Shown here in pieces: positions 24,684 through 56,205 of a stretch of DNA of 64,000 bases. This DNA is from Salipiger sp. H15. Its GTDB lineage: Bacteria; Pseudomonadota; Alphaproteobacteria; Rhodobacterales; Rhodobacteraceae. The stretch is from positions 310,001 through 374,000 of the forward strand of contig NZ_CP123386.1 of the NCBI RefSeq assembly GCF_040409955.1, read 5' to 3'. A program made the translations under genes and the position numbers. The notes beneath the pieces are model-generated. The model was given only the letters and a program-made list of their open reading frames with translations, did no database searches and was not told the origin of the DNA. Within the stretch, counting starts at the first letter, position 1; every line of letters starts with the position of its first letter.

Positions 24684-25269
24684 CTTATCCAATGCCCCTT
24701 CGTGAGTATTCGGTTCTCGGGAAACAATAAACGGAGCCGAGCCGGCCCATGACTTGTGCCCGACAAGGGTGACACGCGCATGAAGGGGGGTCAAACAGTC
24801 CGCCCCGGATCACCGGCGCTCCGCCGCCCCATCGGCGATTTTCCCCGGCGCGCGATGCATTTTGAAGCAACGCCGCGTCAAGCCCCGCGCGGTCCAAGTC
24901 CCGGCGCGGGCAGGAAGATGCCGCACGGCGGACGCAGGCCGATCGGCTGCCCGCCGCGAGCCTCAAGCGAGCTGCGACGCAGCCCCGCAGCGATCCGCTT
25001 GCAACTCTGCAAATCAATCGGGACGCGGCGGCGCGGAAATTGGCACTCGGGATGTATATTCATCTCAGCGTCATACCTATTCCCATTTTTCGCCACATGA
25101 CGTGGTTTCATGACAACACACGCAATTGTGCACTCTTGTGCCGCTACGGAACAAAGACCCTTGGGTCACTTTCCCAATATCCCTCCCGGGCATCGAATTC
25201 CTTCCGGAAATGCGCGGGCCGTTTGCCTGCCTCGCGGAAGCATCCTCATTTGTGATTTTGGAGTTGGAC
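24684..25269. other. divergent intergenic region sulfotransferase / GH16-RTX gene
   Basis: 586 bases between divergent starts, no convincing gene. The right half (25040-25140) is A+T-rich and contains small inverted repeats (CCAC/GTGG at 25094-25106, and CACA...TGTG around 25119-25132). It presumably carries the promoters of both genes. Confidence 0.4.
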
Positions 25270-28200
25270 ATGGGCGTGGATTTATCCGGTATGACACTCA
25301 TTTTCGAAGACAATTTCGAAGATGGACTGAACAGGTACGAAAATGGGGCCGGTTTGTGGTCCACCGGCAGCGCGACGGGACGGCTGAACACCAACAGCGC
25401 GTTTTCGGTCAACCTCTCGGGCGACGAGGTGACGGCGGAGGGCGGGGAGCTCGGCCTCGATCCGTTCAGCACCGGGGACGGCACGCTGCGGATCACCTCC
25501 GGCACGCTGACCGACGCGCAGAAGGACCAGGTCGCCGCCCTGCTCGGACAGACCGGCGAGGCGAGCTACCTCGATACCGATCTGGTCGATTACTACACCG
25601 GCCGGATGAGCACCCACGAGACCTGGTCGCAGACCTACGGCTATTTCGAGATCACCGCCCGCATCCCGCAGGGCAAGGGGCACTGGCCCGCCTTCTGGCT
25701 GGTCTCGGAAAAGGTCAACGACTGGCCGCCCGAGATCACCATCATGGAGGCCTATGGCGAAAGCACCGACGGCGCGCAATGGTGGGACGACACCTTCGTC
25801 GGCGCGGTGCATTTTGACAGCACCGACAGCAGCGGCAACGACGCCGAGATCGCGATAGAGAACCCCTACGATCTCGACGAGGACGGCAACCCGTCCCTGC
25901 CGGTGGACCGCAGCGAGATCGTCGGCCGGGAATCCTGGTCCTTCGGCAAGGAGTTCGACGCGCTCGAGGAGTTCGGCGCGGACATCTACGACCAGTTCTG
26001 GACCTGGTCGGTCGAGTGGAACGCCGAGGACATCATCTTCTACTTCGGACCCGACCGCGACCACCTGGTCGAGATCTTCCGCAGCCCGACACCGGATGAC
26101 ATCACCACGCCGATGTCGGTCATCATCAACGACCAGATCGGCAGCTACACCGGCTGGTTCGCCGAGGAAGGCGCCTCGGGTTTCGACCTCACCGACTATT
26201 TCGAGGTCGACTCGGTGTCGGTCTGGGCGCAGACGCCCGAGACGGCGGCCACGGTCACCGCCGGCGAGATCTACGTCGACAGCGCCGGCGACTCGGTGAT
26301 CCAGGGCAGCGCCGGCGATGACACCATCGTCACCGGCGACGGCTTCGACATCCTCACCCTCGGCGGCGGGGCCGATACGGTGCATGTCATGGTCAACGAG
26401 GGCCACAAGATCATCGAGGATTTCGGCCCCGAGGACCGGCTCCTGCTCGAGGGCTTCCGCTTTGCGGATGCCGCCGACATCGCGGCGAGCCTGACGCAGG
26501 TCGGCACGGATGTCTGGCTGAGCCAGGGGCAGTTCGGCGATGAGGGCCCGCAGACGATCATCCTGCGCAACACCACGGTGGACGCGATCACCGAAGGACA
26601 GATCGTCAGCCTCTGGCCGCAGACCCCCGACATCTGGACCTACCAGGTGCTCATGGAAAGCGGCCTCATCGCCGACGACGACCTCGACGGCGTCGTCACC
26701 GCGCCGGAGGCCGGCGGACGCATGACCGACGCGGGCTCGCGGGGCGCGACCTTCTACGGCAGCGAGATGGGCGACACCTACACCATCTACGGCGCGCTCG
26801 ACGTGACGATCCACGAGAGTGCGAGCGGCGGTGTCGACACGATCTACACCCAGTTCAGCCGGACCATCGCCGAGAACGTCGAGAACATGGTCTCGATCGC
26901 CACCACCGACGGCCAGGTGCTGGCCGGCAACGCCGCGGCGAACCGGATCACCGGCAGCAGCTGGGCCGAGACCATCGACGGCGCGGGCGGGGATGACCTC
27001 ATCGACCTCTCGGCGGGCGGCGCCGACACGGTGCTGATGCGGCTCGGCACCGGCCATGACACGGTGATCGACTTCGGCAGTGACGATACGCTGCTGCTCT
27101 ATGGCTACGAGACGATGGGCTGGGAGGCGCTCTCGCAGCTCTTCAGCTCGGACGGGCGCGACCTCACGCTGACGCTCGACGCGCATACGCAGGTCACCTT
27201 CCGCGGCATCGACGCGCTGAAGAAGGGCCAGGTGGTCTTCGCCGACATCCCGCGGGTTTCCGGCACGGCCGGGGACGACGAGATCGAGCTTGGCAGCGGC
27301 GATGACGAGGTGCTCCTCGGCGATGGCGGCGCCGACACGCTGACCATCTACGGCGCCTCGGGGCTCAAGATCGTCGAGGACTTCTCGGATGACGACCGGC
27401 TGGTGCTCGAGGGCTGGTCCGCCGCCAACGTCGGCCAACTGCTCGATCATTCCGCGCAGGTCGGCGACGATCTCTGGGTCTACGACCTTGGCCGCGCTGC
27501 CAGCGGCACGCCCGACCTCGTGCTGCGCGGCGTCTCGGCCAGCGACCTCACCGAGGCGCAGCTGACCCTGCGCTGGTCGATCACGCCCGAGGAGATCGCC
27601 GCGCAGGACATGCTCACCGACACCGATGGCGACCGGCGCGTCGTGGCCCCGGCAGACGGCGGGCACCTCGGCGACGCGGGCAGCGGCAGCACCACGCTCG
27701 TCGGCGGCGCGGGAAGCGACGTCTTCACCGTCACCCGCGCGGACACGGTGATCGAGGATGGCTCGGACACCGACGTCGACACGGTGCGCAGCACCCACGG
27801 CTACACGCTGGGCGCCCATCTCGAGAACCTGACCTCCATCGCCACCGCCGACGGCGAAACCTTCATCGGCAACGACAGCGCGAACCGCCTGACCGGCTCT
27901 GCCTATTCCGAGACGCTGGACGGTGGCAGCGGCGACGACCTCATCGACCTCTCGGCCGGGGGCGCGGACACCGTGCGGATCACCGCCGGTGCGGGGCACG
28001 ACACGGTGGTCAATTTCGGGGCGGATGACACGCTCGAGATCTCCGGCTTCGACATCGCCGACTGGGCCGAGCTCGTCTCGCGATTGCAGCTTGTCGGCGA
28101 CGACCTCGTGCTCGGCCTCGATGCAGAAACCAGCGTCACCTTCCGCGACCTCGGCAGCCTTCGCGCGTCGCAGCTGAAGGTCGACTACAGCTCCGAGGAT

Positions 28201-29337
28201 GCCGCCCACCCGACGCCCGGCAGCTCGGTTTCGGTACTCGACAAGCTCTACGGATCCGAGACCGGCGACGCGGCGCAGGGCAATTCCGCCGACAACACGA
28301 TCTATGGCAACGGCGGGGACGACTTCATTGCTGGCGGGCTCGGCGATGACAAGCTCTACGGCAATGCCGGGAACGACACGCTGCTCGGACAGGGCGGCGA
28401 CGACCTGCTGACCTCGGGCAGCGGGCACAACACGCTCGTCGGCGGCGCGGGCGCCGACCGCTTCGCCATCACCGGCGAAAGCGCGGCGGACAAGGTGATC
28501 TACGCCGGAGCGGCCTATGACAGCATCTCGACGATCGAGGATCTGTCCTTCGGCGAGGGCGACGTGCTGGTCCTGCGCAACGCGTTCGGCAGGGTGATCT
28601 CGGAGATGGGCCGCGGCTGGTTCGCGACCTTCGACACGCTGAAATCGCTCGTCGATCGCTACGCAATCGACGGTCAGCCCGCCGTCCTGCTGACCGCCGA
28701 CGACGGCACCCGCCACGTGATCGATCTGTCGGGCTACGGGGATCTGGACGCGCTCTTCCCCGAGCTGCCGCCGCAGGATCCTTACGCGATCCCCGAGGAC
28801 GCGCTGAAGGTCGAGGATCGCGCCTTCGGCACCAGCGGGGACGACGTCTACCTAGGCTCCGCCGCCGCCAACGTGATCTTCGGCGGCGCGGGCAACGACT
28901 TCATCGCCGGTGGCGACGGCGCGGACAGGCTCTTCGGCGACGCGGGCGACGACACGCTGCGCGGCGGTGCCGGGGATGACGTGCTCAAGGGCGGGGACGG
29001 GCGGAACGTGCTGATCGGCGACGACGGCGCGGACCGGTTCTGGTTCGAGGCCGCGACGAGCGAGACCCGGACCGAGCTGGCGGGGCAGATGTTCGACAGC
29101 GTCACGCTGCTGCCCGATCTCGACTTCGGCGAGGGCGACAACCTCTACTTCGCCAGCGGCTTCGGGCAGGCGCTCGCCGCCGCCGGCCTTTCGGGCACCA
29201 AGGTCTCGACCGCGCAGCAGCTGGACAAGCTCGGCACGCTGGGGACGGTGTCCGAGGACGGGACCACCTACGTGGTGCTGACCGGCGACGACGGCAGCCG
29301 CCACGCGGTCGAGCTCGCGCTCGACACGCTGCTCTGA
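25270..29337 (+). CDS. secreted GH16 glycanase-like protein with RTX calcium-binding repeats
   Basis: 1355 residues. The N-terminus (about 1-340) is a GH16 domain, with GYFEITARIPQGKGHWPAFW (124-143) before the active-site strand. The rest is RTX/hemolysin-type, with nonapeptides such as GGAGNDFIAGGDGADRLFGD near residue 1205. It has no signal peptide, as expected for type I secretion. The layout resembles ExsH/PlyA-type enzymes that shorten rhizobial exopolysaccharide. Oddity: the catalytic motif reads EITIME (E155, T157, E160), where the family has aspartate in the third position; both glutamates are kept. ATG 25270 has a GGAG site and starts the GH16 similarity. No type I secretion genes are in the window. 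Confidence 0.88.
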   Translation: MGVDLSGMTLIFEDNFEDGLNRYENGAGLWSTGSATGRLNTNSAFSVNLSGDEVTAEGGELGLDPFSTGDGTLRITSGTLTDAQKDQVAALLGQTGEASYLDTDLVDYYTGRMSTHETWSQTYGYFEITARIPQGKGHWPAFWLVSEKVNDWPPEITIMEAYGESTDGAQWWDDTFVGAVHFDSTDSSGNDAEIAIENPYDLDEDGNPSLPVDRSEIVGRESWSFGKEFDALEEFGADIYDQFWTWSVEWNAEDIIFYFGPDRDHLVEIFRSPTPDDITTPMSVIINDQIGSYTGWFAEEGASGFDLTDYFEVDSVSVWAQTPETAATVTAGEIYVDSAGDSVIQGSAGDDTIVTGDGFDILTLGGGADTVHVMVNEGHKIIEDFGPEDRLLLEGFRFADAADIAASLTQVGTDVWLSQGQFGDEGPQTIILRNTTVDAITEGQIVSLWPQTPDIWTYQVLMESGLIADDDLDGVVTAPEAGGRMTDAGSRGATFYGSEMGDTYTIYGALDVTIHESASGGVDTIYTQFSRTIAENVENMVSIATTDGQVLAGNAAANRITGSSWAETIDGAGGDDLIDLSAGGADTVLMRLGTGHDTVIDFGSDDTLLLYGYETMGWEALSQLFSSDGRDLTLTLDAHTQVTFRGIDALKKGQVVFADIPRVSGTAGDDEIELGSGDDEVLLGDGGADTLTIYGASGLKIVEDFSDDDRLVLEGWSAANVGQLLDHSAQVGDDLWVYDLGRAASGTPDLVLRGVSASDLTEAQLTLRWSITPEEIAAQDMLTDTDGDRRVVAPADGGHLGDAGSGSTTLVGGAGSDVFTVTRADTVIEDGSDTDVDTVRSTHGYTLGAHLENLTSIATADGETFIGNDSANRLTGSAYSETLDGGSGDDLIDLSAGGADTVRITAGAGHDTVVNFGADDTLEISGFDIADWAELVSRLQLVGDDLVLGLDAETSVTFRDLGSLRASQLKVDYSSEDAAHPTPGSSVSVLDKLYGSETGDAAQGNSADNTIYGNGGDDFIAGGLGDDKLYGNAGNDTLLGQGGDDLLTSGSGHNTLVGGAGADRFAITGESAADKVIYAGAAYDSISTIEDLSFGEGDVLVLRNAFGRVISEMGRGWFATFDTLKSLVDRYAIDGQPAVLLTADDGTRHVIDLSGYGDLDALFPELPPQDPYAIPEDALKVEDRAFGTSGDDVYLGSAAANVIFGGAGNDFIAGGDGADRLFGDAGDDTLRGGAGDDVLKGGDGRNVLIGDDGADRFWFEAATSETRTELAGQMFDSVTLLPDLDFGEGDNLYFASGFGQALAAAGLSGTKVSTAQQLDKLGTLGTVSEDGTTYVVLTGDDGSRHAVELALDTLL
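26295..28185 (+). repeat. tandem duplication of a ~315-residue RTX module (copies 26295-27240 and 27256-28185)
   Basis: Two successive protein segments align along their length. GSAGDDTIVTGDGFDILTLG matches GTAGDDEIELGSGDDEVLLG, IIEDFGPEDRLLLEGF matches IVEDFSDDDRLVLEGW, and ITGSSWAETIDGAGGDDLID matches LTGSAYSETLDGGSGDDLID (DLIDLSAGGADTV is identical in both). This is an internal duplication within the GH16-RTX gene. Confidence 0.75.
28246..29334 (+). repeat. second tandem duplication, ~175-residue C-terminal RTX module (copies 28246-28780 and 28806-29334)
   Basis: Both copies run from RTX nonapeptides (GGDDFIAGGLGDDKLYGNAG versus GGAGNDFIAGGDGADRLFGD). They continue through a GADRF segment, a DLSFGEGD/DLDFGEGD segment, and end with VLLTADDGTRHVIDL versus VVLTGDDGSRHAVEL. 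With the preceding repeat this gives an A-A-B-B layout behind the GH16 domain. Confidence 0.7.
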
Positions 29338-36374: not shown

Positions 36375-36571
36375 CGCGTGCCTCCATGTTCGTGGGCTGG
36401 TTGGTGGGATCCGCCGTCCCGGTCTTGATGCCCGCAGATACCCCTTTGCCCCCAGCGGCTCAAGAACCAAGCAGGCACGGAATCGCCCAACTTCAGCGAC
36501 GGAAAGAGAAAGCACAAAAATTTTGACGGACCGCCGTTCTCCCCGCGTAAATTGCGGTCTATTTGGAACCC

Positions 36572-39079
36572 ATGGATGTCGTCATTGTCACTGCGGTCAT
36601 TGCATCGCTCTTTCTCGTCATCGCCGCGGCCGAGCCGCTGGCGGATCGTCTCCGTCTGCCCTACAGCGCGATCCTCGCGCTTCTGGGCATATTCATAGGC
36701 AGCGCCGCGATATTCCTGCTGCGCACCGACATCACGGATGCGCTCAATCCCTTCGCGGCGGCGATCATCAACCTGCCGATCAGGTCCAACGTCTTCCTCT
36801 ACGTGTTCCTGCCCACCCTGCTCTTCCAGGCGACATTGGGCATGAACCTCAGGCGGATGCTCGACGACTGGGTGCCGATCCTCGTGCTGGCCATCGTCGC
36901 GGTGGTCGCCGCCACGCTCTTCGTCGGGCTGGCGCTGTCGTGGACAAGCTCGCTGCCGATCATGGCCTGCTTCCTCGTCGGCGCGATCGTCTCGACCACC
37001 GACCCGTCGGCTGTTGTCGGCATCTTCCGCTCGATCGCCGCGCCGCGCCGGCTGGTGCGCATCATCGAGGGCGAGAGCCTGCTGAACGACGCCGCCGCCA
37101 TCGCGCTCTTCGGCCTCTTCATGGGCTTCGTGATGGAGGGCGTGCCCGACCCGACCGCGCTTGGCGCCATCGCGCAGTTCCCCAAGCTGCTCGGCGGCGG
37201 GGCGCTGGCCGGCTGGCTGGTGGCGCAGGGCGCCATCGGCGCCATGGCCCTGCTCGCACGCTACGAGAAGGCGCAGCTCTCGGTTTCGATCGCCCTGCCC
37301 TACCTCGCCTACATCGGCTCCGAGCAGGTCTTCGGCGCCTCGGGCGTGATCGCCGTGGTTGTCTCGGGCCTGACGCTGAACCTCGTCGGCCCCGGGAAGA
37401 TCCCGCCCACCGCCTGGGCCAACCTCAAGGACGTCTGGGACATCCTCGCCCACTGGGCCGGGGCGCTCATCTTCATCCTCGCCGCGCTGCTGATCCCGCG
37501 ACTGCTCGAGGATGTCCATTCCCGCGATTTCGTGCTGATCCTCGTGGTCGTCGCCGCCGCAATGGCGGCGCGCGGGGCAATCCTCTCGGGGCTGCTGCCG
37601 ATCCTGCGCATACTCCGCCTCTCGCCCCGGATCGAACGCCCCTACCGCGTCGCCATCCTCTGGGGCGGGCTGCGCGGCGCGCTCACCCTGGCGCTGGCCC
37701 TCGCGGTCACGGAAAGCTTCCGCGTGCCGATCGAGGTCAAGCGGCTCGTCGGCATCCTGGCCACCGGCTTCACCCTCTGGACGCTGCTGGTGCAGGGCAC
37801 GACGCTCACCTGGGTGATCAAGAGGCTCGGCCTCGACAAGCTGGCCCCGCTCGACCAGGCGCTCAGCAACCAGGTCGTCGCCGTGGCGCTGCAGAGCGTG
37901 CGTGAACAGGTCTCGACCACCACCGACACCTACGGGCTCGACCGCGAGATTGTCCGCGCCGAGGCCAAGCGCTTCGGCAGCCGGCTCGACAAGGCGGTCA
38001 AGGCCGCCGAGGAAGGCGACGAGATCCTCGACCGCGACCGCATCACGCTCGGGCTCATCGCCCTTGCCGGTGCCGAGCGCGACGCGACCACCGCCCGCAT
38101 CCGCGAGCGCACGCTCTCGCTGCGGCTGGCGCAGAAGGCGCTGTCGGATTGCGACCGGCTGATCGAAGGCGCGCGCAGCGAGGGCCGGACCGGCTACCAG
38201 CGTGCCGCCCGCGCCAGCACCCGCTACGGCGCCCCCTTCCGGGCCGCGCTCTTCGCCCACAACCGCCTCCACATCTCGGGGCCGCTCGGCCGGATGACCG
38301 CGGACCGCTTCGACCTGCTGCTCTCGCAGCGGCAGATCCTGCGCGACCTCGACAGCTTCATCGACGGGCGCATCCGGCGCATCCACGGCCGCCGCGTCGC
38401 CGACCTGCTGCGCGAGCTCCTCGCCCGCCGGCGCGAGGCCGCCGAGACCGCGCTCGAGGGCCTGCGCCTGCAGTATCCGGGCTACGCCGAGGAGCTCGAG
38501 CGCCGCTTCATCCGCCGCACCGCGCTGCGGCTCGAGGAAGGCGAATACGAGACCATGCACGACGACGGGCTCATCGGGGCCGAGCTCTACACCGCGCTCA
38601 AGCAGGACCTGTCCCGCCGCCGTGCCCGCGCCGAGGAACGCCCGCCGCTCGACCTGTCGGTGCAGCGCACCGAACTCGTTCGGCAGTTCCCGCTCTTCGC
38701 CGATCTCGAGGAGAAGGAAATCCGCTCTCTCGCCCGCACCCTGCGCACCCGCTACGCCGCGCCCGGCGACATCATCATCCGGCGCGACAGCACCGCCCGT
38801 TCGGTCTGGTTCATCGCCTCCGGCGCGGTCGAGCAGCAGGCCGGCGGCCAGAGCTTCCGGCTTGGCCGCGGCGAGATGTGCGGACAACTCGCGTTGCTGA
38901 TGCCCATGCGCCGCCGCCGCTCCGAGGTGCGCGCCATCGCGCCCTCGACCCTGCTGCGGCTCGACGAGAGCCGGTTCAAGCGGCTGCTGAAGCGCTCCGA
39001 GAAGCTGCGCGAAGCCGTGCGGCAGAGCGCCGAGCGTCGCGGGCTCGACGTATCGTCCATCCTCGGCGAGGACGCCTGA
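36572..39079 (+). CDS. Na+/H+ antiporter (CPA1/NhaP type) with C-terminal cyclic-nucleotide-binding domain
   Basis: 835 residues. About 12 membrane helices fill residues 1-420, with the CPA1 transport motif GAIVSTTDPSAVVGIF and the helix RIIEGESLLNDAAAIALFG. A helical cytoplasmic linker (about 440-690) leads to a cyclic-nucleotide-binding fold near 700-810 (FPLFADLEEKEIRSLARTL, then RRDSTARSVWFIASGAVEQQ). It probably exchanges Na+ or K+ for H+, with the C-terminal domain as a regulator. The phosphate-cassette arginine is not clearly present, so nucleotide binding is uncertain. ATG 36572 is preferred to a TTG three codons upstream. The role fits the salt-adaptation genes further right. Confidence 0.88.
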   Translation: MDVVIVTAVIASLFLVIAAAEPLADRLRLPYSAILALLGIFIGSAAIFLLRTDITDALNPFAAAIINLPIRSNVFLYVFLPTLLFQATLGMNLRRMLDDWVPILVLAIVAVVAATLFVGLALSWTSSLPIMACFLVGAIVSTTDPSAVVGIFRSIAAPRRLVRIIEGESLLNDAAAIALFGLFMGFVMEGVPDPTALGAIAQFPKLLGGGALAGWLVAQGAIGAMALLARYEKAQLSVSIALPYLAYIGSEQVFGASGVIAVVVSGLTLNLVGPGKIPPTAWANLKDVWDILAHWAGALIFILAALLIPRLLEDVHSRDFVLILVVVAAAMAARGAILSGLLPILRILRLSPRIERPYRVAILWGGLRGALTLALALAVTESFRVPIEVKRLVGILATGFTLWTLLVQGTTLTWVIKRLGLDKLAPLDQALSNQVVAVALQSVREQVSTTTDTYGLDREIVRAEAKRFGSRLDKAVKAAEEGDEILDRDRITLGLIALAGAERDATTARIRERTLSLRLAQKALSDCDRLIEGARSEGRTGYQRAARASTRYGAPFRAALFAHNRLHISGPLGRMTADRFDLLLSQRQILRDLDSFIDGRIRRIHGRRVADLLRELLARRREAAETALEGLRLQYPGYAEELERRFIRRTALRLEEGEYETMHDDGLIGAELYTALKQDLSRRRARAEERPPLDLSVQRTELVRQFPLFADLEEKEIRSLARTLRTRYAAPGDIIIRRDSTARSVWFIASGAVEQQAGGQSFRLGRGEMCGQLALLMPMRRRRSEVRAIAPSTLLRLDESRFKRLLKRSEKLREAVRQSAERRGLDVSSILGEDA

Positions 39080-39387: not shown

Positions 39388-39867
39388 ATGCCGAGACGCC
39401 CCACCGATCTCCAGCCCGAGGCCGCGCGGCTCACCGAGACCCTGTCCGATCTCTGGGCGGCCATCACGACGGCGTCCCGCTCTCGCGGCCAGCCGTCTCA
39501 CCTTGCCCCGACCCAGGCCCGCGCGCTTCAGATGATTGCCGAGAACGACGGCATCACCCCGGCGGCGCTCGCGGCGCAGCTCGAGATGTCCCGCCCCCAG
39601 CTCAGCGAGGTCCTGCGCAGGCTCGAGGACGGAGAACTTGTCCTGCGCATGAAGTCCTCGACGGATGGCCGGTCCTTCATCCTCACGCCCACCACCGCGG
39701 GACTCGCGGCACTGGGCCATCTGCGTCACGGCCCGGCCGGTGCGGTGGCCGAGGCGCTGTCGTCCCTGCGGGAAGAAGATGCGCGGAAGATCATCGCCAG
39801 CCTCCCCGCGCTGTCGCGCCTCGCCGCGGCGTTGTCCGGTATCGTCGACGGGGATGTCGCTTCCTAG
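39388..39867 (+). CDS. MarR family transcriptional regulator
   Basis: 159 residues with a MarR winged helix: LAPTQARALQMIAENDGITPAALAAQLEMSRPQLSEVLRRLEDGELV (recognition helix SRPQLSEVLRRL, about residues 68-79), then the wing MKSSTDGRSFILTPT. AAGGAGA lies 8 bases upstream of the ATG. It is monocistronic between the antiporter gene and the replication module; no target is obvious. The ligand is unknown. Confidence 0.85.
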   Translation: MPRRPTDLQPEAARLTETLSDLWAAITTASRSRGQPSHLAPTQARALQMIAENDGITPAALAAQLEMSRPQLSEVLRRLEDGELVLRMKSSTDGRSFILTPTTAGLAALGHLRHGPAGAVAEALSSLREEDARKIIASLPALSRLAAALSGIVDGDVAS

Positions 39868-40197
39868 GTCACGCCCTCGCGGCGGCATGATGTGGAAGGA
39901 CCTGGGAACCGTTGTCCGCGGACAATCTTATATTTGGGGACTCGGGTTCACTGCCCTGCTTCGGAACGGGGGTTTGCGCAACCTTTGGCGTTCGACGCAT
40001 TTCCCGGACGGTGCCTTCATAGCTCGAACCCGAAATGACTATCTCGCCTCAGTCTAGTCGAGCGCTCTCCTAGCGGCAGAAGATGGCAGACCCCGCTTCG
40101 CAGTTCGGTTGTTCGCAGCGGCATCGCGGGAACCCGTTGATGTGGTCTCCGGATTCCAGAGTGGTCTGACCACAAGCGATTCCTGAACGCAAAACCC
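39868..40197. other. region downstream of repC
   Basis: 330 bases without a supported gene. It contains the parS-like palindrome at 39911-39926 and a GTGGTC-T-GACCAC palindrome (40161-40173). One short open frame (39887-40057) crosses the palindrome but shows no coding features. Confidence 0.5.
39911..39926. promoter_or_regulatory. parS: parS-like centromere site 1
   Basis: The core TTGTCCGCGGACAA (39912-39925) is a perfect palindrome, identical at two other places in the repC area. The 16-base context GTTGTCCGCGGACAAT differs from the repABC parS pattern GTTNNNNGCNNNNAAC in only its last base. RepB would bind it for plasmid segregation. Confidence 0.8.
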
Positions 40198-41250
40198 TCA
40201 AATTGTCCGCGGACAACTCGGCGCAGTCTGCCTCGCCAGGGACCGGATCAGGCGCGCAGGGTCGAAGCCCGCGCTGCGCGGTCCAAGCGTCAGGCTCCGG
40301 AAATAGGCTCCGAACCTGCCGATCCGGTCCTGCATCTGCACCATGGCCCAAATCGTCAGCGCGGCCGATCGAATGCCGATCCGCTTCTCGGCCTCGGCGT
40401 AAAGCTCGGGGCTGATCCCCAGCATCGGGGCAAGCGTGCGTCCATGGCGGACGAGCTGGTGCTCGTCCTTCACCGGCTCCTGGGCAAAGGCCGCTGCCTC
40501 GGGACAGGCCTCGACGACATCCTGTGCCGAGATCGTCCGGGCCTTATCAATATTTTCTTTTGTTGACCTATGATGGTGCCGGACATTCTGGCCGTCATTG
40601 CCGGTCATTTCCTCGGGTTGTGCAGCGTCTTCGAGGGCGTTTTCCACAGGGCTTTCGGACAGCTGATCGAGCAGGGCCGCGCAGTCCTCGACCGTCAGCT
40701 TGCGGCGCAGGGCGCGGAGCGCGGCGAGGGCGGAGGTGTCCTCGGCATCCCGCGCAAGGGACAGGTGTGCCGCGGCACGAAGCTTGGCGCGCAGGTAGTC
40801 GAGCCGCTCGCGCAGCTCGTCCATCTGCGCGGCGATGCGGGCGAAGTCACCGAGCCTGGAGAAGAGCGGGGCGAGGTCGAAGCCGAAGCGCAGGCAAAGC
40901 CCGTCGGTGCGGTTTCTGCGGGTGAAGCGCTTGCGGTTGGGGCTGTCCCGGCGCGCGATCAGCCCGGAGTCGACAAGCTGCTCGACGTGGCGGCGGATGG
41001 TCCGCTCCGACAGGCCGTTGAGGCGCGAGACGAGCGACTCGTTCGAGGCAAAGACCATGTGATGCCCGCGCTGCGGCGGCAGGAAGGACAGCATCGCGTC
41101 GAGCGTCGCGAGCACCGGGGGCTTCAGCCCGAGCGCCGGCGCGGCCTTGCGGAGAATCGACAGGACGATGTGACGCTCCGGCGGGTTGTCCGCGGACAAC
41201 AGATCACCGGGCCGCTGCCCGGCGGCAGCGGAGAGATGGTGTACGGCCAT
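40198..41250 (-). CDS. repC: replication initiation protein RepC
   Basis: 350 residues from ATG 41250. An in-frame TTG at 41277 would add nine residues, including FGRRE, which resembles RepC N-termini; the choice is open. A winged-helix region lies at about residues 70-125 (FASNESLVSRLNGLSERTIRRHVEQLVDSGLIARRDSPNRKRF), characteristic of repABC initiators. RepC is the sole initiator of repABC replicons, and oriV usually lies inside the gene. Two parS-like palindromes fall within the coding sequence (40203-40216 and 41185-41200). It is the last gene of repA-repB-repC. Confidence 0.95.
   Translation of the reverse strand: MAVHHLSAAAGQRPGDLLSADNPPERHIVLSILRKAAPALGLKPPVLATLDAMLSFLPPQRGHHMVFASNESLVSRLNGLSERTIRRHVEQLVDSGLIARRDSPNRKRFTRRNRTDGLCLRFGFDLAPLFSRLGDFARIAAQMDELRERLDYLRAKLRAAAHLSLARDAEDTSALAALRALRRKLTVEDCAALLDQLSESPVENALEDAAQPEEMTGNDGQNVRHHHRSTKENIDKARTISAQDVVEACPEAAAFAQEPVKDEHQLVRHGRTLAPMLGISPELYAEAEKRIGIRSAALTIWAMVQMQDRIGRFGAYFRSLTLGPRSAGFDPARLIRSLARQTAPSCPRTI
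40203..40216. promoter_or_regulatory. parS: parS-like centromere site 2 (inside the 3' end of repC)
   Basis: TTGTCCGCGGACAA, identical to the other two copies. It lies directly before the repC stop codon and encodes the last RepC residues (CPRTI). Confidence 0.8.
41185..41200. promoter_or_regulatory. parS: parS-like centromere site 3 (inside the 5' part of repC)
   Basis: GTTGTCCGCGGACAAC, a full match to the GTTNNNNGCNNNNAAC pattern and the most complete of the three copies. It encodes LSADN about 20 residues into RepC. Confidence 0.85.
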
Positions 41251-41473
41251 GGCAAATTCACGGCGTCCGAAGGTCAAAACACCCGGTCACGCCAAAAAAG
41301 GCATGACTTTCCCGCCAACCGAATCGGTTGCTGTTGACTGTCGCGGAGAAGCTGGTAAATCTGAGGGTGCTAAGCACAGATTGGGCCTCTCCGAGTTTAT
41401 CTTGGGGGGCTCTTTCTCTTTTCGGCCTGCGTCGTGCTCCTTCTTTGGTTGCTGCTCGAGTTTTGTTGTCCGG
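41251..41473. ncRNA. repB-repC leader with structured RNA; probable site of the counter-transcribed incompatibility RNA
   Basis: In repABC replicons an antisense RNA from the repB-repC gap limits repC expression. This 223-base gap has the expected structure. A stepped stem spans 41345-41392 (GGAGA/TCTCC, then AATCTG/CAGATT, then TGC/GCA), and a CAACCGA-A-TCGGTTG stem spans 41316-41330. A TTGACT element on the + strand (41334-41339) has only a poor -10 partner, so the RNA's exact start and end are not resolved. Confidence 0.45.
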
Positions 41474-42439
41474 TCAGCCCTGCTTGGCCTTCCAGAGGTC
41501 GTAGATGCGCAGGAGTTCCGCCTCGGCGTTCTCCTCCAGCCAGTCGGCGAAGCCGGGGACCTCGGTCCGCGACAGCTTCAGCGTCAGGGCGCGTGCCGTG
41601 GGGCGCAGCTCGGCGAGGCGCGTGCCATCCTTCAGAAGGATCGGCAGGGCAGGGGAGGTGCCGGTCGCCTGTGCGGGGCCGCGCAGGCGCGTCGAGACGG
41701 CCTGCGCCAGCTGTTCGAACCGCGCGTCCGACGAGGGGATCGCGGCGAACTGCACGCCATTTGCGAGCGCGTCGAGGTCAAGCTCGTTGTCCCGCACCGC
41801 GTCGGCCATCTCTTCCCAGCGCCGCCGGCCGATCCCGTGTGCCGGGCCGACCTGCTGGATCACGTTCGACGAGATCACCCGCGCCACCTTGTTCATCCGC
41901 GACAGCATCGGCTTGTCGATCGCCAGCGCGTCCATGACGACGTCGGATGTGTAGCCCGCGTCGCTGAGCTCGCGGATGAACAGCGCCTTCTCGATGAAGG
42001 ACGGATCGAGCCGCTGGCTGTTCTCATGGCCCTGGGCGAGGATCGCCTCCTCGTCGGAAAGCGACCGGACAAGCGCCTTGGCGGTCAAACCGAGGCTGCG
42101 CAGGGCGCGCAGGCGGCGGCGACCATAGACGACCTTGAAGCGCCCCGGCTGCTCGGGCAGCGGGCGCACCATGATCGGGACCTGCTGGCCATGCTCGCGG
42201 ATGCTCGCGGCGAGTGCCGCGACCTCGGCATCGCCGAAGGCGAGCCGGTCGTTCGGCCCGCCGTCGTCGATCAGGTCGGGGGAAATCTCGCGCACCGCAT
42301 TGGCCGACAGGTCCTTCAGCGTCGAGCGCACGCCGCTCATCGCGCCGGTGTTCGGAAAGCGCGATTTCTGCGGTTTAGACTCTTCCGAAGGCGGCGTGGC
42401 CGGCGGGGGAGGGGGCTGGAAAAGGTTGCGGCGTGCCAT
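41474..42439 (-). CDS. repB: plasmid partitioning protein RepB (ParB family)
   Basis: 321 residues. The ParB-type N-terminal domain has VAALAASIREHGQQVPIMVRPL (about 70-92) and the VVYGRRRLRALRSLG box. A helix-turn-helix follows (SDVVMDALAIDKPMLSRMNKVARVI, about 160-185). It binds the parS palindromes and works with RepA in segregation and autoregulation. Its ATG overlaps the repA stop (ATGA). A proline-rich stretch (PPPPPATPP) lies near the N-terminus. Confidence 0.95.
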   Translation of the reverse strand: MARRNLFQPPPPPATPPSEESKPQKSRFPNTGAMSGVRSTLKDLSANAVREISPDLIDDGGPNDRLAFGDAEVAALAASIREHGQQVPIMVRPLPEQPGRFKVVYGRRRLRALRSLGLTAKALVRSLSDEEAILAQGHENSQRLDPSFIEKALFIRELSDAGYTSDVVMDALAIDKPMLSRMNKVARVISSNVIQQVGPAHGIGRRRWEEMADAVRDNELDLDALANGVQFAAIPSSDARFEQLAQAVSTRLRGPAQATGTSPALPILLKDGTRLAELRPTARALTLKLSRTEVPGFADWLEENAEAELLRIYDLWKAKQG

Positions 42440-43641
42440 CAGTCAGTCTCCCGTCCCCAGGCCGCCTGGATCACGGCCTCGAATTCGTCCGCGACCCCGT
42501 TCACACTCTCTAAGATGCGGTCTAGGGTCTTTTTCACGACCTGCGCAGGGTCTATTTCGTAGATCGTCTGCTGCGTCATCCCGGCGTCGGAGATCGCCGT
42601 CGACTTCAGCATCGGGTTGGTCAGCACCTGGTCGAGCAGGATCGACCGCAGGAAGCCCGCCATCTGCGATTGCGGAACGTCGGTCGGCTCGTAACGCGCC
42701 ACGAGGAACTTCAGGAAGTCCCAGTCGATGGTGCCCGCGGCCTCTTCCAGCGCGCGGATCGTCTCGCCCGCCATCTCGAGGAACTGCGCCATGGACGCGA
42801 CGTCGAGCATCGAGGGCACGACGGTGATCAGCAGGCCGGTCGAGGCCAGAAGCGCCGACATCGTGGTGAAGCCGAGCTGCGGCGGACAGTCGATGATGAC
42901 GAGGTCGTAGTCGGCCTCGATCTCGTCGAGCGCGATGGCGAGCCGCTGGGTGAAGGGCGGCTCGAGCCGGTGCTGCAGCGCGTAGGCGGTCTCGGTCTCG
43001 TATTCCGAGAGCATGAGCCCCGCCGGAGCGATGTCGAGATTGTGGAAATAGGTCTTTCGGACGACATGGCTCAGCGGCACCGGGTCCTCGTAGCGCAGCG
43101 CGTCGTAGACGGTGCCGCCCTCGGCGAACTCGATCTCGGGCCTATAGCCGAACATGGTGGTCAGGCTCGCCTGCGGGTCCATGTCGATGGCCAGCACGCG
43201 GTAGCCGCGCAGGGCGTAGCGCTGCGCGAGATGCACCGCGGTGGTGGTCTTCGAGCTGCCGCCCTTGAAGTTGACGATGCTGATCACCTGCAGCTTGTCG
43301 CCCTCGCGGCGGCCGGGCAGGTAAGCCTCGCCATTGCGGCCGGTGCGCGCCATGACGTGCCGGATCGCGTCGATATCCGCCGCGCTGTAGAGTCTTCGGC
43401 CGCGGCTATCCGTCTCTACATCGGGGAAATCGCCCTCCTGGTGACGGGTGCGCAGGTTGGACATGCTGATCCCGGTCAGCTCCGAGACTTCCGACGCGTT
43501 GAACCGGCGCAGCAGCTTGCGGCTGTCCGGCTGGAAGCTGTTGCGCATGTGTTCGTTGAGCGCGCTGGACAGGCGCTCGGCATTTGCCGAAATTGATGCG
43601 GCAACGGAACCTGCTGCGGACAGGGTATCGGTCGAAGTCAT
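42439..43641 (-). CDS. repA: plasmid partitioning protein RepA (ParA family ATPase)
   Basis: 400 residues, the usual RepA length. The deviant Walker A motif KGGSSKTTT is at 126-134, Walker A' (AIDMDPQASLTTMFG) follows, and DLVIIDCPPQLG is Walker B. An N-terminal MerR-like helix-turn-helix (ASEVSELTGISMSNLRTR) allows repression of its own promoter. ATG 43641 has GAGGA about 10 bases upstream and matches known RepA N-termini (SANAERLSSALNEH); the frame extends further upstream without family similarity. Confidence 0.96.
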   Translation of the reverse strand: MTSTDTLSAAGSVAASISANAERLSSALNEHMRNSFQPDSRKLLRRFNASEVSELTGISMSNLRTRHQEGDFPDVETDSRGRRLYSAADIDAIRHVMARTGRNGEAYLPGRREGDKLQVISIVNFKGGSSKTTTAVHLAQRYALRGYRVLAIDMDPQASLTTMFGYRPEIEFAEGGTVYDALRYEDPVPLSHVVRKTYFHNLDIAPAGLMLSEYETETAYALQHRLEPPFTQRLAIALDEIEADYDLVIIDCPPQLGFTTMSALLASTGLLITVVPSMLDVASMAQFLEMAGETIRALEEAAGTIDWDFLKFLVARYEPTDVPQSQMAGFLRSILLDQVLTNPMLKSTAISDAGMTQQTIYEIDPAQVVKKTLDRILESVNGVADEFEAVIQAAWGRETD

Positions 43642-52431: not shown

Positions 52432-55400
52432 CTAGGCCTCGTCGCCGCGCAGGGGCGCGGGCGCGCGCAGCGCCGCTTCCAGCGCCTCGGCATCGTCGAG
52501 ATCGCGGCTGCGCTGTCCCGGGGCAAGCTCGGCCAAAACCGCGCTCAGCGCTGCGGGCCCGCCGGTGGCGCCCTCGGTCCGGGCAAGATCCATCGCCGCC
52601 CGCAGCGCGAGCAGCGTCGCGCCCGAGCGCCGTGCGCTCTGCAGCGCGCCGGTGAGCAGGGCCTGAGCGTCGCCGCCGCAGCGGGCGAGCAGGCGCTGCA
52701 ACTCGGCGTCGAAATAGGTCACGCCGCTTTCCTCGGTGACCCGCCGGGCCTCCTGCAGAAGCGCACGGGCCTCCTCGCGCTGCCCGTCGCGCAGCCGGGT
52801 CTCGGCCAGCCAGGCGCGGGCGTAGGGCAGGGCGAGGCATGCCCCGGTGTCGAGGTAGGCGGCCGTGCCGCGTTCGAGTTGCAGGGCGCCCTCCGGATCG
52901 CCCTTCAGGGCGCGGGCATGGCCGGTCACCATGTCGGACTGGGCCAGCCATTGCGCATAGCCATGTTCCGCCGCGATCCGCGCGGCGATCTCGCCATGCC
53001 GCTGCGCTGCCTCGGGGCGCCGCAGGAAATGCTGCATGACCCCGGTGAAGACATGCGCGAAGGTCATCGAGAAGACGTGTTTCAGCGCCGAGGAGGTGGC
53101 GATCGCCCAGGCACTGCTGAGCTCCGCCGCCTCGACCTCGCCGCGCAGCGCGTGCAGCCAGCCGAGGTAGCTGCGGGCACAGACCGAGAGGTCGAGCCCG
53201 TAGCGCTCGATCTCCTCGAGCGCGAGGTCGGGAAGGTGCTGTTCGAGCGCCGCCTCGAAGGCGCGCTGCGCCGGGCCGAGATCCCCCGCGTAATACTGCG
53301 TGACGCCAAGCGCGTAATGCCCGGCGACGATGCCGACCTCGTCCTGCGCCTCCTCGCAGAGCGCCAGCAGCTTGCGGGCGATGCGCAGCGCGGTGGCGAT
53401 GTCGGCGCGCACCACGTAGAAGCTCCAGAGCCCCCAGTGGACATGCGCGCGTTCCATGGGATCGCCGGAACTGTCGGCGAGGGTCAGCGCCTGCGCATAG
53501 GTCTGCGCGACCTCCTCGGCGGCGAAACCGTGCAGGGCGATCAGCTGCGGGCCGCGCAACAGCAGGAACTTCAGCTCGAGCGCGGCGGCCCCGGCCCGGT
53601 CGGGCTGCGTGCGGGCGAGGGTCAGGGCGCGGCCGAAATGCGCCGCGGCCTCGGAATGGGCGGCGACCCGGAGCGCCTGCTTGCCGGCCGTCTCGAGCCG
53701 CGCGATGGCGTCGAGCGGGCGACCGCCAAGCTCGAAATGCGTGGCGACGAGTTCGGCCGGGGCGGGAACGGAGGCCTCGGCCAGGATCGTGCCGAGCCGG
53801 CCGTGAAGCTCGGCGCGCTCGGCCAAGAGCAGGGTCTGGTAGGCCTGTTCCTGCACCAGCGCGTGCTTGAACTCGTAACGCGCGTCGGGCGCGGGCCCGA
53901 GCCGGTAGACGAGGTCGTGCCCCTGCAATTCCTGCAGCGCCGCCTCGAGCGCCTCGGGTGCCCGACCGGTGAGCCGCGAGAGCGTTGCGGTGTCGAAGAC
54001 CCGGCCGATCACCGCGGCCTGCTGCAGCACGCTGCGCGCGCCGTCGAGCCGGTCGATGCGCGCGGTCAGCGAGGCGTGCAGGCTGTCGGGGATGGCGCCG
54101 TCACCGCCCTCGGCGGCGGTGCGCACCAGCTCCTCGAGGTAGAGCGGGATGCCGTCCGACCGTTCGACGATGGCGTCGATGCGCGCGGCGGGCCAGTCGG
54201 GCGGGCAGATGTCGGTGACGAGCGCACGCGCCTGCGCCCTGTCGAGGCGGCGCAGGGTGATGTTGCGCATCGCCGAGGGCGCCGGAACCGCGATGCCGGG
54301 CGGCTGGCGCGAGCTGCCGAGCATCATCAGCGGCAGGTTGGCGAGCTCGGTCGCGAGCCGGGCGAGCAGCAGCTGCGAGGTCGGGTCGAGCCAGTGCAGG
54401 TCCTCGACGATCATCAGCACCGGCCGTCCCTCGCGGACCGCGGCGCGCAGCAGGGCGGCGACGGCGGCGATCAGCACATCCTGATCGATCGGCGTCGCGT
54501 CCGGCGCGCTCGACAGGCCCAGCAGCGCCACCAGCACCTGCTCGACCTGCGCGGTGTCGAGCCCGGACCGGGTGGCGAGCCAGTGCCGCAGCGCCCGCTG
54601 CCGCTCCTCCGGCGAGGGCAGGCGGGCGAAGCCGAGCATCTCCTGCAGGTAATGCACAAGCGGGTAGAGGGCGCTCTGCCGGTGATGCGGCGAGGACTGG
54701 AACTGCAGGATCTGCGGATCGTCGGCCATGGCATGTTGCTTGAACGCCGCGAGCAGCCGCGACTTGCCGATGCCGGCCTCGCCGCGCAGCACGGCGACGC
54801 GGGTCTTGCCGCCGGTCACCTCGGCCCAGAGCGCGGCAAGCGCGCCCAGCTCCTCCGCGCGCCCGGTCAGGGCGGTGAGCCGGCTGGCGGCGCCGGAGGC
54901 AAGGAAGCGGTCGGCGTAGAGGCTCTCGCCCAGCACGATCTGCGCGGGGTGGCTGCCCTCGCCGCCGGGCACGGGAATGGTTCGGAAGCGGTCGCGCAGG
55001 CTGCGGCGCATCGCGCCCGAAATGCGGACCTCGCCGGGACCGGCCTGCAGCTCGAGGCGCGAGGCGGTGATCACCGCCGGCCCGGCCACGGACATCAGCA
55101 TCCTGTCGTCGTTCCGGGTCACCACCGTCTCGCCCATGGCAAGGCCCGCGCGCAAGTCGACGGCTTGCCCCGCGGCGTCGGTGAAGCCGCGCTTGACGAG
55201 GTCGAGCGCGGCATAGACCGCGCGTTCCGGATCCGCCTCGTCGGCGCGCGGGTGGCCGAAAAGGGCCAGCACCCGCCCGTCCGCCTGCACCAGCACCTTG
55301 CCGCCGGCGGGCTCGACGCGCGCGCGGCAGACCTCGGCAAGCCGGGTCAGCAGCGCGACGATGTCCTCGGGATCGCGCTCGAGCTCGTCGGCCGAGGCAA

Positions 55401-56205
55401 GGCCGATGGCGGCGACGGTCATCTCGCGCCGTTCCGGCACCGTCGCCTCGGCGCGCGGCGCCGGATGCACCGGCGGTCGGGCGGGGCCGGGGCCGGCGGT
55501 GTCGCGGATCTCCTCGTAGAGCTCGAACGTGTCCTGGTCGGGCTCGGCGTCGAGCTCGCGCCGCAGCGCCTCGACGCAGCGCTGGTATTGCTGCAACGCC
55601 TCGCCGCGCCGTCCCGACTGCCACAGGTGCCGCATCAGCGTGCGGTGCGCCTCCTCGTTGGTCTCGTCGATGCGCAGCAGCGTGCGGGCGATCCCGGGCT
55701 CGGCGGGGGCGTAGAGCAGCGCCGCGTGCAGCCGCTCGAGCACCCGGTCGCGGATCTGCTCGCGGCAGAGCCGCCGCCACTCCTCGAAGGCCTCGGAGCG
55801 GATGTCGAGCCCGGCGAGGAACTCCCCCCGGTAGAGCTCGGCGACTTCCGCCGCCGCCTCGGGCGTGGCGGTGGCGCAGAGCGTCTCGACCCGCTGCACG
55901 TCGAGGAAAAGCTCGCGCGTGTCGAGCAGCACGGCCTCCTTGCTGGCCTCGATCACCTCGAGCCCGACCCGGCTGAGCGTGCGGCGCAGCACCGAAAGCT
56001 CCTGCCGCAGGCTGGCCCGGGCCTGGTCCTCGGTGCGGTCTCCCCAGAGCAGCGTGGCGATCTCTTCCCGGGGCACGGCGCGGTCGGCGCGCTCGGCCAG
56101 AATGGCGAGCAGGGCGAAGGACTTGCGCGAGCTGAGGCGCAGCAGGCTGCCGTCCGCGACGCGCAGCTCGCAGCCTCCCAGCAGTCTGAGCTCGGCTTTC
56201 GTCAT
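52432..56205 (-). CDS. large BTAD/SARP-type regulator with cyclase-like, ATPase and TPR regions
   Basis: 1257 residues. Order: winged helix of the OmpR/SARP type (about 1-95), BTAD helical domain (100-245), class III adenylyl-cyclase-like domain (258-430), STAND/AAA-type ATPase (445-760; Walker A GEAGIGKS at 475-482, Walker B VLMIVEDLHWLD near 596-607), then TPR-like helices to the end. The cyclase-like part is degenerate: the family's first metal aspartate (FADL) is replaced in AAIGLA (266-270), while DG at 309-310 remains. It is probably a signal-gated transcriptional activator; ligand and targets unknown. It is convergent with ectR and monocistronic. Confidence 0.85.
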   Translation of the reverse strand: MTKAELRLLGGCELRVADGSLLRLSSRKSFALLAILAERADRAVPREEIATLLWGDRTEDQARASLRQELSVLRRTLSRVGLEVIEASKEAVLLDTRELFLDVQRVETLCATATPEAAAEVAELYRGEFLAGLDIRSEAFEEWRRLCREQIRDRVLERLHAALLYAPAEPGIARTLLRIDETNEEAHRTLMRHLWQSGRRGEALQQYQRCVEALRRELDAEPDQDTFELYEEIRDTAGPGPARPPVHPAPRAEATVPERREMTVAAIGLASADELERDPEDIVALLTRLAEVCRARVEPAGGKVLVQADGRVLALFGHPRADEADPERAVYAALDLVKRGFTDAAGQAVDLRAGLAMGETVVTRNDDRMLMSVAGPAVITASRLELQAGPGEVRISGAMRRSLRDRFRTIPVPGGEGSHPAQIVLGESLYADRFLASGAASRLTALTGRAEELGALAALWAEVTGGKTRVAVLRGEAGIGKSRLLAAFKQHAMADDPQILQFQSSPHHRQSALYPLVHYLQEMLGFARLPSPEERQRALRHWLATRSGLDTAQVEQVLVALLGLSSAPDATPIDQDVLIAAVAALLRAAVREGRPVLMIVEDLHWLDPTSQLLLARLATELANLPLMMLGSSRQPPGIAVPAPSAMRNITLRRLDRAQARALVTDICPPDWPAARIDAIVERSDGIPLYLEELVRTAAEGGDGAIPDSLHASLTARIDRLDGARSVLQQAAVIGRVFDTATLSRLTGRAPEALEAALQELQGHDLVYRLGPAPDARYEFKHALVQEQAYQTLLLAERAELHGRLGTILAEASVPAPAELVATHFELGGRPLDAIARLETAGKQALRVAAHSEAAAHFGRALTLARTQPDRAGAAALELKFLLLRGPQLIALHGFAAEEVAQTYAQALTLADSSGDPMERAHVHWGLWSFYVVRADIATALRIARKLLALCEEAQDEVGIVAGHYALGVTQYYAGDLGPAQRAFEAALEQHLPDLALEEIERYGLDLSVCARSYLGWLHALRGEVEAAELSSAWAIATSSALKHVFSMTFAHVFTGVMQHFLRRPEAAQRHGEIAARIAAEHGYAQWLAQSDMVTGHARALKGDPEGALQLERGTAAYLDTGACLALPYARAWLAETRLRDGQREEARALLQEARRVTEESGVTYFDAELQRLLARCGGDAQALLTGALQSARRSGATLLALRAAMDLARTEGATGGPAALSAVLAELAPGQRSRDLDDAEALEAALRAPAPLRGDEA

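Follow-up and report, generated by a model that had tools for sequence, protein, structure and literature searches.

In Rhodobacterales, passages of PMC9040568 place the parS sites of repABC replicons in the repB-repC spacer and downstream of repC, in up to four repeats and also within the open reading frames that follow, and passages of PMC5613091 state that specific palindromes distinguish compatibility groups. Two of these groups are represented in a table of PMC9025767 by plasmids pDSM110277_a (RepABC-10) and pDSM107133_e (RepABC-5). For the plasmid p42d, part of PMC3155836 locates the origin of replication (oriV) in an A+T-rich part of repC, where silent changes abolished replication. Here we describe the repABC module of the window, the 64,000-nucleotide stretch that was analysed, which spans bases 310001-374000 of contig C3 (NZ_CP123386.1; 438,649 bp) of Salipiger sp. 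H15; the assembly (GCF_040409955.1) comprises seven contigs, C1 to C7, and 6,108,930 bases (6.1 Mb). We put at roughly 0.92 the probability that this is a RepABC-10-type replication and partition module maintaining the 438-kb contig C3 as a low-copy replicon. The module is ordinary; its relatives form a natural experiment on the number and position of ParB-loading sites needed in a low-copy replicon. Its genes and sites are as follows:

42439..43641, minus strand: repA, 400 amino acids, ParA-type partition ATPase (TIGR03453, 567.5 bits; cut-off 348.45)
41474..42439, minus strand: repB, 321 amino acids, ParB-type centromere-binding protein by family (TIGR03454, 302.8 bits; cut-off 201.5)
40198..41250, minus strand: repC, 350 amino acids from the ATG at 41250, stop at 40198-40200, replication initiator by family (NF040974, 226.1 bits; cut-off 150)
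41186..41199, no strand: parS-like site 1, in frame in repC codons 18-22 (peptide LSADN); the full 16-mer GTTGTCCGCGGACAAC lies at 41185-41200
40203..40216, no strand: parS-like site 2, in the last repC codons, 2 nt before the stop codon
39912..39925, no strand: parS-like site 3, outside repC; 272 nt separate it from the repC stop, and a MarR-family gene (39388-39867) lies on its other side

The operon is intact on the minus strand. Profile searches find all three families side by side, presumably as one transcription unit, and RepA, RepB and RepC all exceed their NCBIfam equivalog cut-offs; RepC also matches Pfam RP-C and RP-C_C (the RepC family scans started from a TTG at 41277, not from the ATG at 41250). 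The complete module reported by the initial annotation, made from the sequence alone, is therefore borne out. Its statement that the genes overlap as expected holds for the first pair only, which share 1 nt (TGATG at 42439), because 223 nt separate the repB stop from the repC ATG; with starts chosen by script, this gap is 206-262 nt across the 75 related modules described below and is usual for the group. The palindrome TTGTCCGCGGACAA (14 bp) is present three times as reported, at 39912, 40203 and 41186, each copy exact and all within 1.3 kb, and the assembly holds no other exact copy. Allowing up to two mismatches gives four matches against 0.24 expected, a number that none of 100 shuffles reaches. 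One copy fully fits the pattern GTTNNNNGCNNNNAAC, as had been noted, solely at 41185-41200; that pattern by itself is weak (0.40 expected, present in 34 of 100 shuffles), and the two further copies deviate from it at one end base, which still fits if one deviation is allowed as in PMC9040568. Three exact copies around one operon are stronger evidence than the consensus pattern alone.

The palindrome tracks RepB identity. Our contig scan covered 80 named loci (the best 80 of 228; handles beginning with L below), collected by RepB similarity: the exact palindrome occurs in 64 of the 64 with RepB identity of at least 55% and in none of the 16 at or below 45%, where one-mismatch copies are absent too. 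For plasmids, we compared 13 of the 15 records with RepB above 60%. The window RepB is 60-64% identical to these 13 aligned proteins (plasmid RepB reaches up to 65%, and RepC, in its closest plasmid matches, about 50%), and all 13 carry the exact 14-mer close to both ends of repC. Counted over whole records, TTGTCCGCGGACAA occurs twice in 12 of the 13 and four times in pEJ01 of R. xanthinilyticus (L018, NZ_CP017782.1). The pairs of pEJ01 lie at 151778-152834 and 252015-253070, about 100 kb apart and both with the module spacing of about 1 kb; the RepC search lists three places there, and the plasmid may be a fusion with two like modules.

A RepB tree of 97 rows gathers the 78 palindrome-bearing rows, pDSM110277_a among them, into one clade (Shimodaira-Hasegawa-like approximate likelihood ratio test, SH-aLRT, 90, not starred), whose sister (joint support 96, starred) is a seven-row clade (100, starred) holding pDSM107133_e; the window RepB groups with Citreicella sp. 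C3M06 and Salipiger aestuarii (100, starred). The tree is a quick one that drew warnings of long branches joining in other groups, so that only the window clade and its RepABC-5 sister are used. RepB falling within the RepABC-10 clade and the palindrome being identical to that of the labelled member, the module is, on its sequence, a member of RepABC-10, a named Rhodobacterales compatibility group. Two observations count against these readings: (i), the labels conflict, the M. algicola pMaD2 record being labelled 'RepC-5a' although it belongs to the same clade as RepABC-10 pDSM110277_a; (ii), of the 16 palindrome-free loci, L116 and L123 end soon after repB, which leaves 14 informative because these two hold almost no DNA past repB. 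The genome's three other repABC loci have palindromes of their own, GTTGGCCATGGCCAAC on C5, GTTCACAGCTGTGAAC on C6 and TGACCGCGGTCA on C7, which fits the coexistence of compatible replicons; that of C6 is the RepABC-2 motif printed in a passage of PMC5613091, and that of C5 is the palindrome of the pMaD4 record labelled RepC-6. The C7 repABC has TGACCGCGGTCA three times, one reciprocal base away from the window palindrome; in the contig itself (L034, L155), G+C is 0.61-0.62, compared with about 0.69 in the C3-C6 samples, and tetranucleotide usage deviates strongly. At least two nearby copies of the 14-mer could serve as a simple typing mark for RepABC-10, single copies being no such mark because some arise by chance. 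One RepABC-10 module with normal sites lies on a contig of Vreelandella neptunia HM116 (L052), a record name that we take to be that of a gammaproteobacterium; contamination or transfer could account for it.

DNA-level constraint at site 1 was examined in the codons of repC. The window, the 13 plasmids and the 64 loci make 78 modules, collected by RepB similarity and not via the palindrome, with copies counted within the available stretch; 75 with a readable complete repC were kept, and L050, L092 (one copy each) and L099 (two copies) were set aside. For the codon test, modules were chosen by the peptide LSADN, or all 71 aligned modules were taken (the divergent L101-L104 being left out), so that the palindrome was not used for selection; the counts ignore kinship among modules. 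LSADN is found near the repC start in 65 of the 75 modules, and all 65 encode it as TTG TCC GCG GAC followed by AAC (40) or AAT (25). Across the 71 aligned modules, 122 columns have at least 85% amino-acid conservation, with a median codon entropy of 1.67 bits; only six have zero entropy, and these are the L, S and D of site 1 and three columns in codons 223-231. The site-1 leucine is TTG in 71 of 71 modules, including eight aligned ones without the exact site, and other conserved repC leucines draw on five or six codons (in modules picked for an exact in-gene palindrome, a choice that leaves the comparison unaffected). A sliding scan of synonymous conservation over all modules gives two peaks, at codons 15-22 and at about 213-235, the latter overlapping the most A+T-rich part of repC (A+T 0.53 in 40533-40592 vs 0.23-0.40 in the remaining 60-nt blocks of the gene). 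By analogy with oriV of p42d, we read this second block as a putative replication origin:

40546..40614, minus strand: putative oriV block within repC, codons 213-235, a second stretch of frozen synonymous sites

The repB-repC spacer holds a conserved predicted antisense-RNA gene, at the place expected for a counter-transcribed RNA (ctRNA):

41334..41421, plus strand: predicted antisense RNA gene (ctRNA/RepE-like), with -35 TTGACT at 41334-41339 and -10 TAAATC at 41356-41361
41387-41409, then a T-rich tail, plus strand: terminator-like hairpin of the predicted ctRNA, from a terminator scan
41316..41330, no strand: conserved 15-bp inverted repeat CAACCGAATCGGTTG, directly upstream of the predicted ctRNA promoter

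In a spacer alignment of 29 modules chosen from the 75, TTGACT and a GGGGGCTCT block are invariant; TTGACT, a TAAATC-like -10 and the hairpin with its T-run stand on the strand antisense to repC. The promoter- and terminator-like features are conserved in all 29, and a consensus fold is further evidence for the predicted gene. Variants of CAACCGAATCGGTTG occur in 68 of the 75 modules, a few of them changed on both arms. Two negatives speak against the prediction: a strict promoter scan reported no promoter for this RNA, and Rfam gave no ctRNA family at E up to 10.

These features bear on an alternative that we regard as unlikely, namely that the palindromes are operators, for repression by RepA or RepB or for another regulator, or that site 1 is a mere consequence of LSADN conservation in the protein. 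Site 1 does lie at the repC start, next to the ctRNA gene, and RepB bound there could hold down the expression of repC; such a role is proposed for the repB-repC site of pAMI4 in a passage of PMC9040568. Two of the three sites, however, lie in the repC end and past repC. As for the protein, the ten modules without an exact in-gene site read LSTDN (L044), LPTDN (L097), LPADD (L098), LPTTH (five) or an unrelated peptide (L102, L103) at this place. The LSADN residues are thus dispensable, and these modules still keep two DNA copies, whereas the site-1 codons are frozen wherever LSADN is present; together, replacements and frozen codons rule out protein-level conservation as the full reason for site 1. 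A mixed role for this site is possible.

Every one of the 75 modules carries at least two exact copies (69 have two; the window, L045, L077, L090 and L105 have three; L093 has four), and in all of them at least one lies in the 3' half of repC or past repC, site 3 of the window being an extra copy on top of the usual two. Each of the ten modules that lack an exact in-gene copy has a pair of copies close to the repC end, with starts 28-61 bp apart. Of the 65 with an in-gene copy, six have a second downstream copy, or two when only copies that begin under 150 nt from the stop are counted. The raw comparison of 10/10 with 6/65 does not represent 75 independent events; the ten absences correspond to about four changes on the RepB tree, where at least four are needed. 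A test of independence between absence of the in-gene site and presence of a second downstream site was not significant, with two pairs on starred branches and four on all branches, numbers at which significance was unreachable. Nor do change counts separate gain from loss: Falsigemmobacter (L102, L103) branches off first in the clade as drawn, and its modules may have lacked an in-gene site from the outset. Citreicella C3M06, the closest relative of the window, has a one-mismatch in-gene copy and two copies near the repC end.

A separate draw of 394 family genomes has the 14-mer in 15, eight with at least two copies and seven with one. Six of these seven single-copy genomes show no RepB or RepC match within 1.5 kb of it; the seventh (L166) comes nearest to a counterexample, being a genuine module in which one copy is exact and the other has a single mismatch. 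The RepABC-5 16-mer occurs in 35 of the 394 genomes (27 with two copies, six with one, one with three, one with four), and 29 of the 30 loci checked lie beside a repC relative, the remaining one being L194 (single copy). Four of the single-copy genomes have a one-mismatch second copy 446-449 bp off, which is the in-gene distance, and a sixth single-copy genome yielded no locus. Among 11 RepABC-5-type loci inspected, seven have the site in frame as STAVD beside the origin block and a further three carry both sites beyond the stop; a single exact copy is present in L110 (in-gene) and in L115 (downstream). The two-site pattern spans the RepABC-10 and RepABC-5 sister groups, with exceptions at the level of exact matches.

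We tentatively hypothesize, at somewhat less than even odds, that replicons of both groups are kept at no fewer than two parS sites (a two-site floor) and that these change position by gaining a new copy before an old one is lost: one would stay at or near the repC 3' end, and the second would shift between an in-frame place in repC, where it freezes codons, and a downstream tandem. The window, with three sites, would then be an intermediate and Citreicella C3M06 the next step. If the two-site floor is true, a one-site replicon should be less stable, and a centromere in frame in an initiator gene would be a case of DNA-level selection overriding codon choice. The type of system is already known and the site-turnover reading is a new proposal; neither the titles and abstracts returned by literature searches nor the passages of PMC9040568 and PMC5613091 mention a site placed in frame at the start of repC or a two-site floor, and a literal search for the 14-mer in papers gave none. 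The founding classification (Petersen et al., 2009), outside the scope of these searches, may describe in-gene sites.

The initial annotation had placed the window on a repABC replicon or a recent integrant of one. The first part agrees with the complete module, its group-specific parS-like sites and the separation of C3 from the tRNA-bearing C1 (2.93 Mb) and C2 (1.75 Mb); integration into the main chromosome is not indicated. That the module is a silent resident passenger, with C3 driven by another origin or forming part of the C1 or C2 chromosome, seems to us quite improbable. In its favour, a circularity check, which also counts against our own reading, found no overlap between the first and last 20 kb of C3 and so leaves circularity unproven (C3 may be a trimmed circle), and the sampled composition of C3 (G+C 0.69) resembles that of C2 in both G+C and tetranucleotide usage. 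Against it, nothing in the module is broken or atypical, whether genes, parS-like sites, ctRNA features or origin block, the sole RepC-family match on C3 in a search for that family is the window repC, and the 45 tRNA matches are all on C1 and C2. As RF00177 gave no match in the assembly, 16S ribosomal RNA is unable to place the contigs. The VirB4-type family PF03135, the sole conjugation family tried (relaxases were not searched), had no match in the genome.

We also find no support for the suggestion that the replicon is a chromid or a motility/biofilm plasmid: C3 carries none of the tRNA matches, its flagellar genes are not the sole set because C1 has a second full flhA (flagellin matches occur on C1, C3 and C4), and the palindrome is present in 5 of 20 genomes of the genus. 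The composition of C3 is compatible with a chromid and no proof of one, and a large plasmid is the cautious reading. Of the cargo listed for the window, FlhA and EctB score above their cut-offs and polysaccharide genes are present; the two norspermidine enzymes score below theirs. The idea that the three palindromes are a product of chance or of recent duplication is barely credible: lone copies can indeed arise by chance (6 of 394 family genomes have one without a rep gene within 1.5 kb, equal to the 6 of 394 for a reversed control pattern), but the observed count was not reached in any shuffle, the positions of the two usual sites are common to many genera, and the covariation with RepB contradicts it, so that shuffles and covariation together rule it out.

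If the module maintains C3 as a RepABC-10-type replicon, as we favour, RepC would open the A+T-rich origin within its own gene and antisense RNA from the repB-repC spacer would limit RepC. RepB dimers would load at the three TTGTCCGCGGACAA sites and RepA would move the RepB-DNA complexes apart, while the sequence of the palindrome would make the replicon incompatible with others of its type yet compatible with the genome's three further repABC modules. RepB binding, origin activity, antisense transcription and segregation at this locus are inferred.

Other observations concern the rest of the genome and window. C4 (322,786 bp) is probably another replicon type because it has only a weak RepB-family match, at 132974-133444, and no RepC match. 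On C1, positions 1800001-1820000 (L142) have a G+C content of 0.497 against 0.65-0.70 in three other 20-kb samples of that contig, a possible foreign island. Within the window, 25126-29337 (plus strand) is a 1403-amino-acid frame with RTX calcium-binding repeats close to polysaccharide genes, and 52432-56205 (minus strand) is a 1257-amino-acid frame matching a TOMM-system kinase/cyclase fusion model below cut-off. The frame at 36563-39079 (plus strand) matches CPA1-type Na+/H+ antiporters, also below cut-off; its C-terminal part matches positions 73-199 of the encapsulin-2B model and is perhaps, at a guess, a cyclic-nucleotide-binding-like domain.

Among described systems, the repABC of Rhizobium etli p42d belongs to a rhizobial replicon, and the parS locations listed in the relevant part of PMC3155836 omit the repC start. 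pAMI4 of Paracoccus aminophilus is, like C3, a repABC megaplasmid of near-equal size (438 kb), with an operon parS and three extra copies; according to passages of PMC9040568, however, a long non-coding locus 11.5 kb downstream of its repC holds these three, whereas the three sites of the window all fall within 1.3 kb. RepABC-5 pDSM107133_e (NZ_CP085159) belongs to the sister RepB clade, and its relatives carry a site immediately after the repC stop and, at several loci, another in frame within repC; its palindrome is GTCCACCGCGGTGGAC, unlike that of the window, and the in-gene copy, read as STAVD, falls next to the origin block instead of at the repC start. RepABC-10 pDSM110277_a (NZ_CP084960) shares with the window the RepB clade, the 14-bp palindrome, the gene spacing and the sites at the repC start (LSADN) and the repC end; the window differs from it in the third exact copy past repC, and the two modules are 52% identical in RepC and 63% in RepB.

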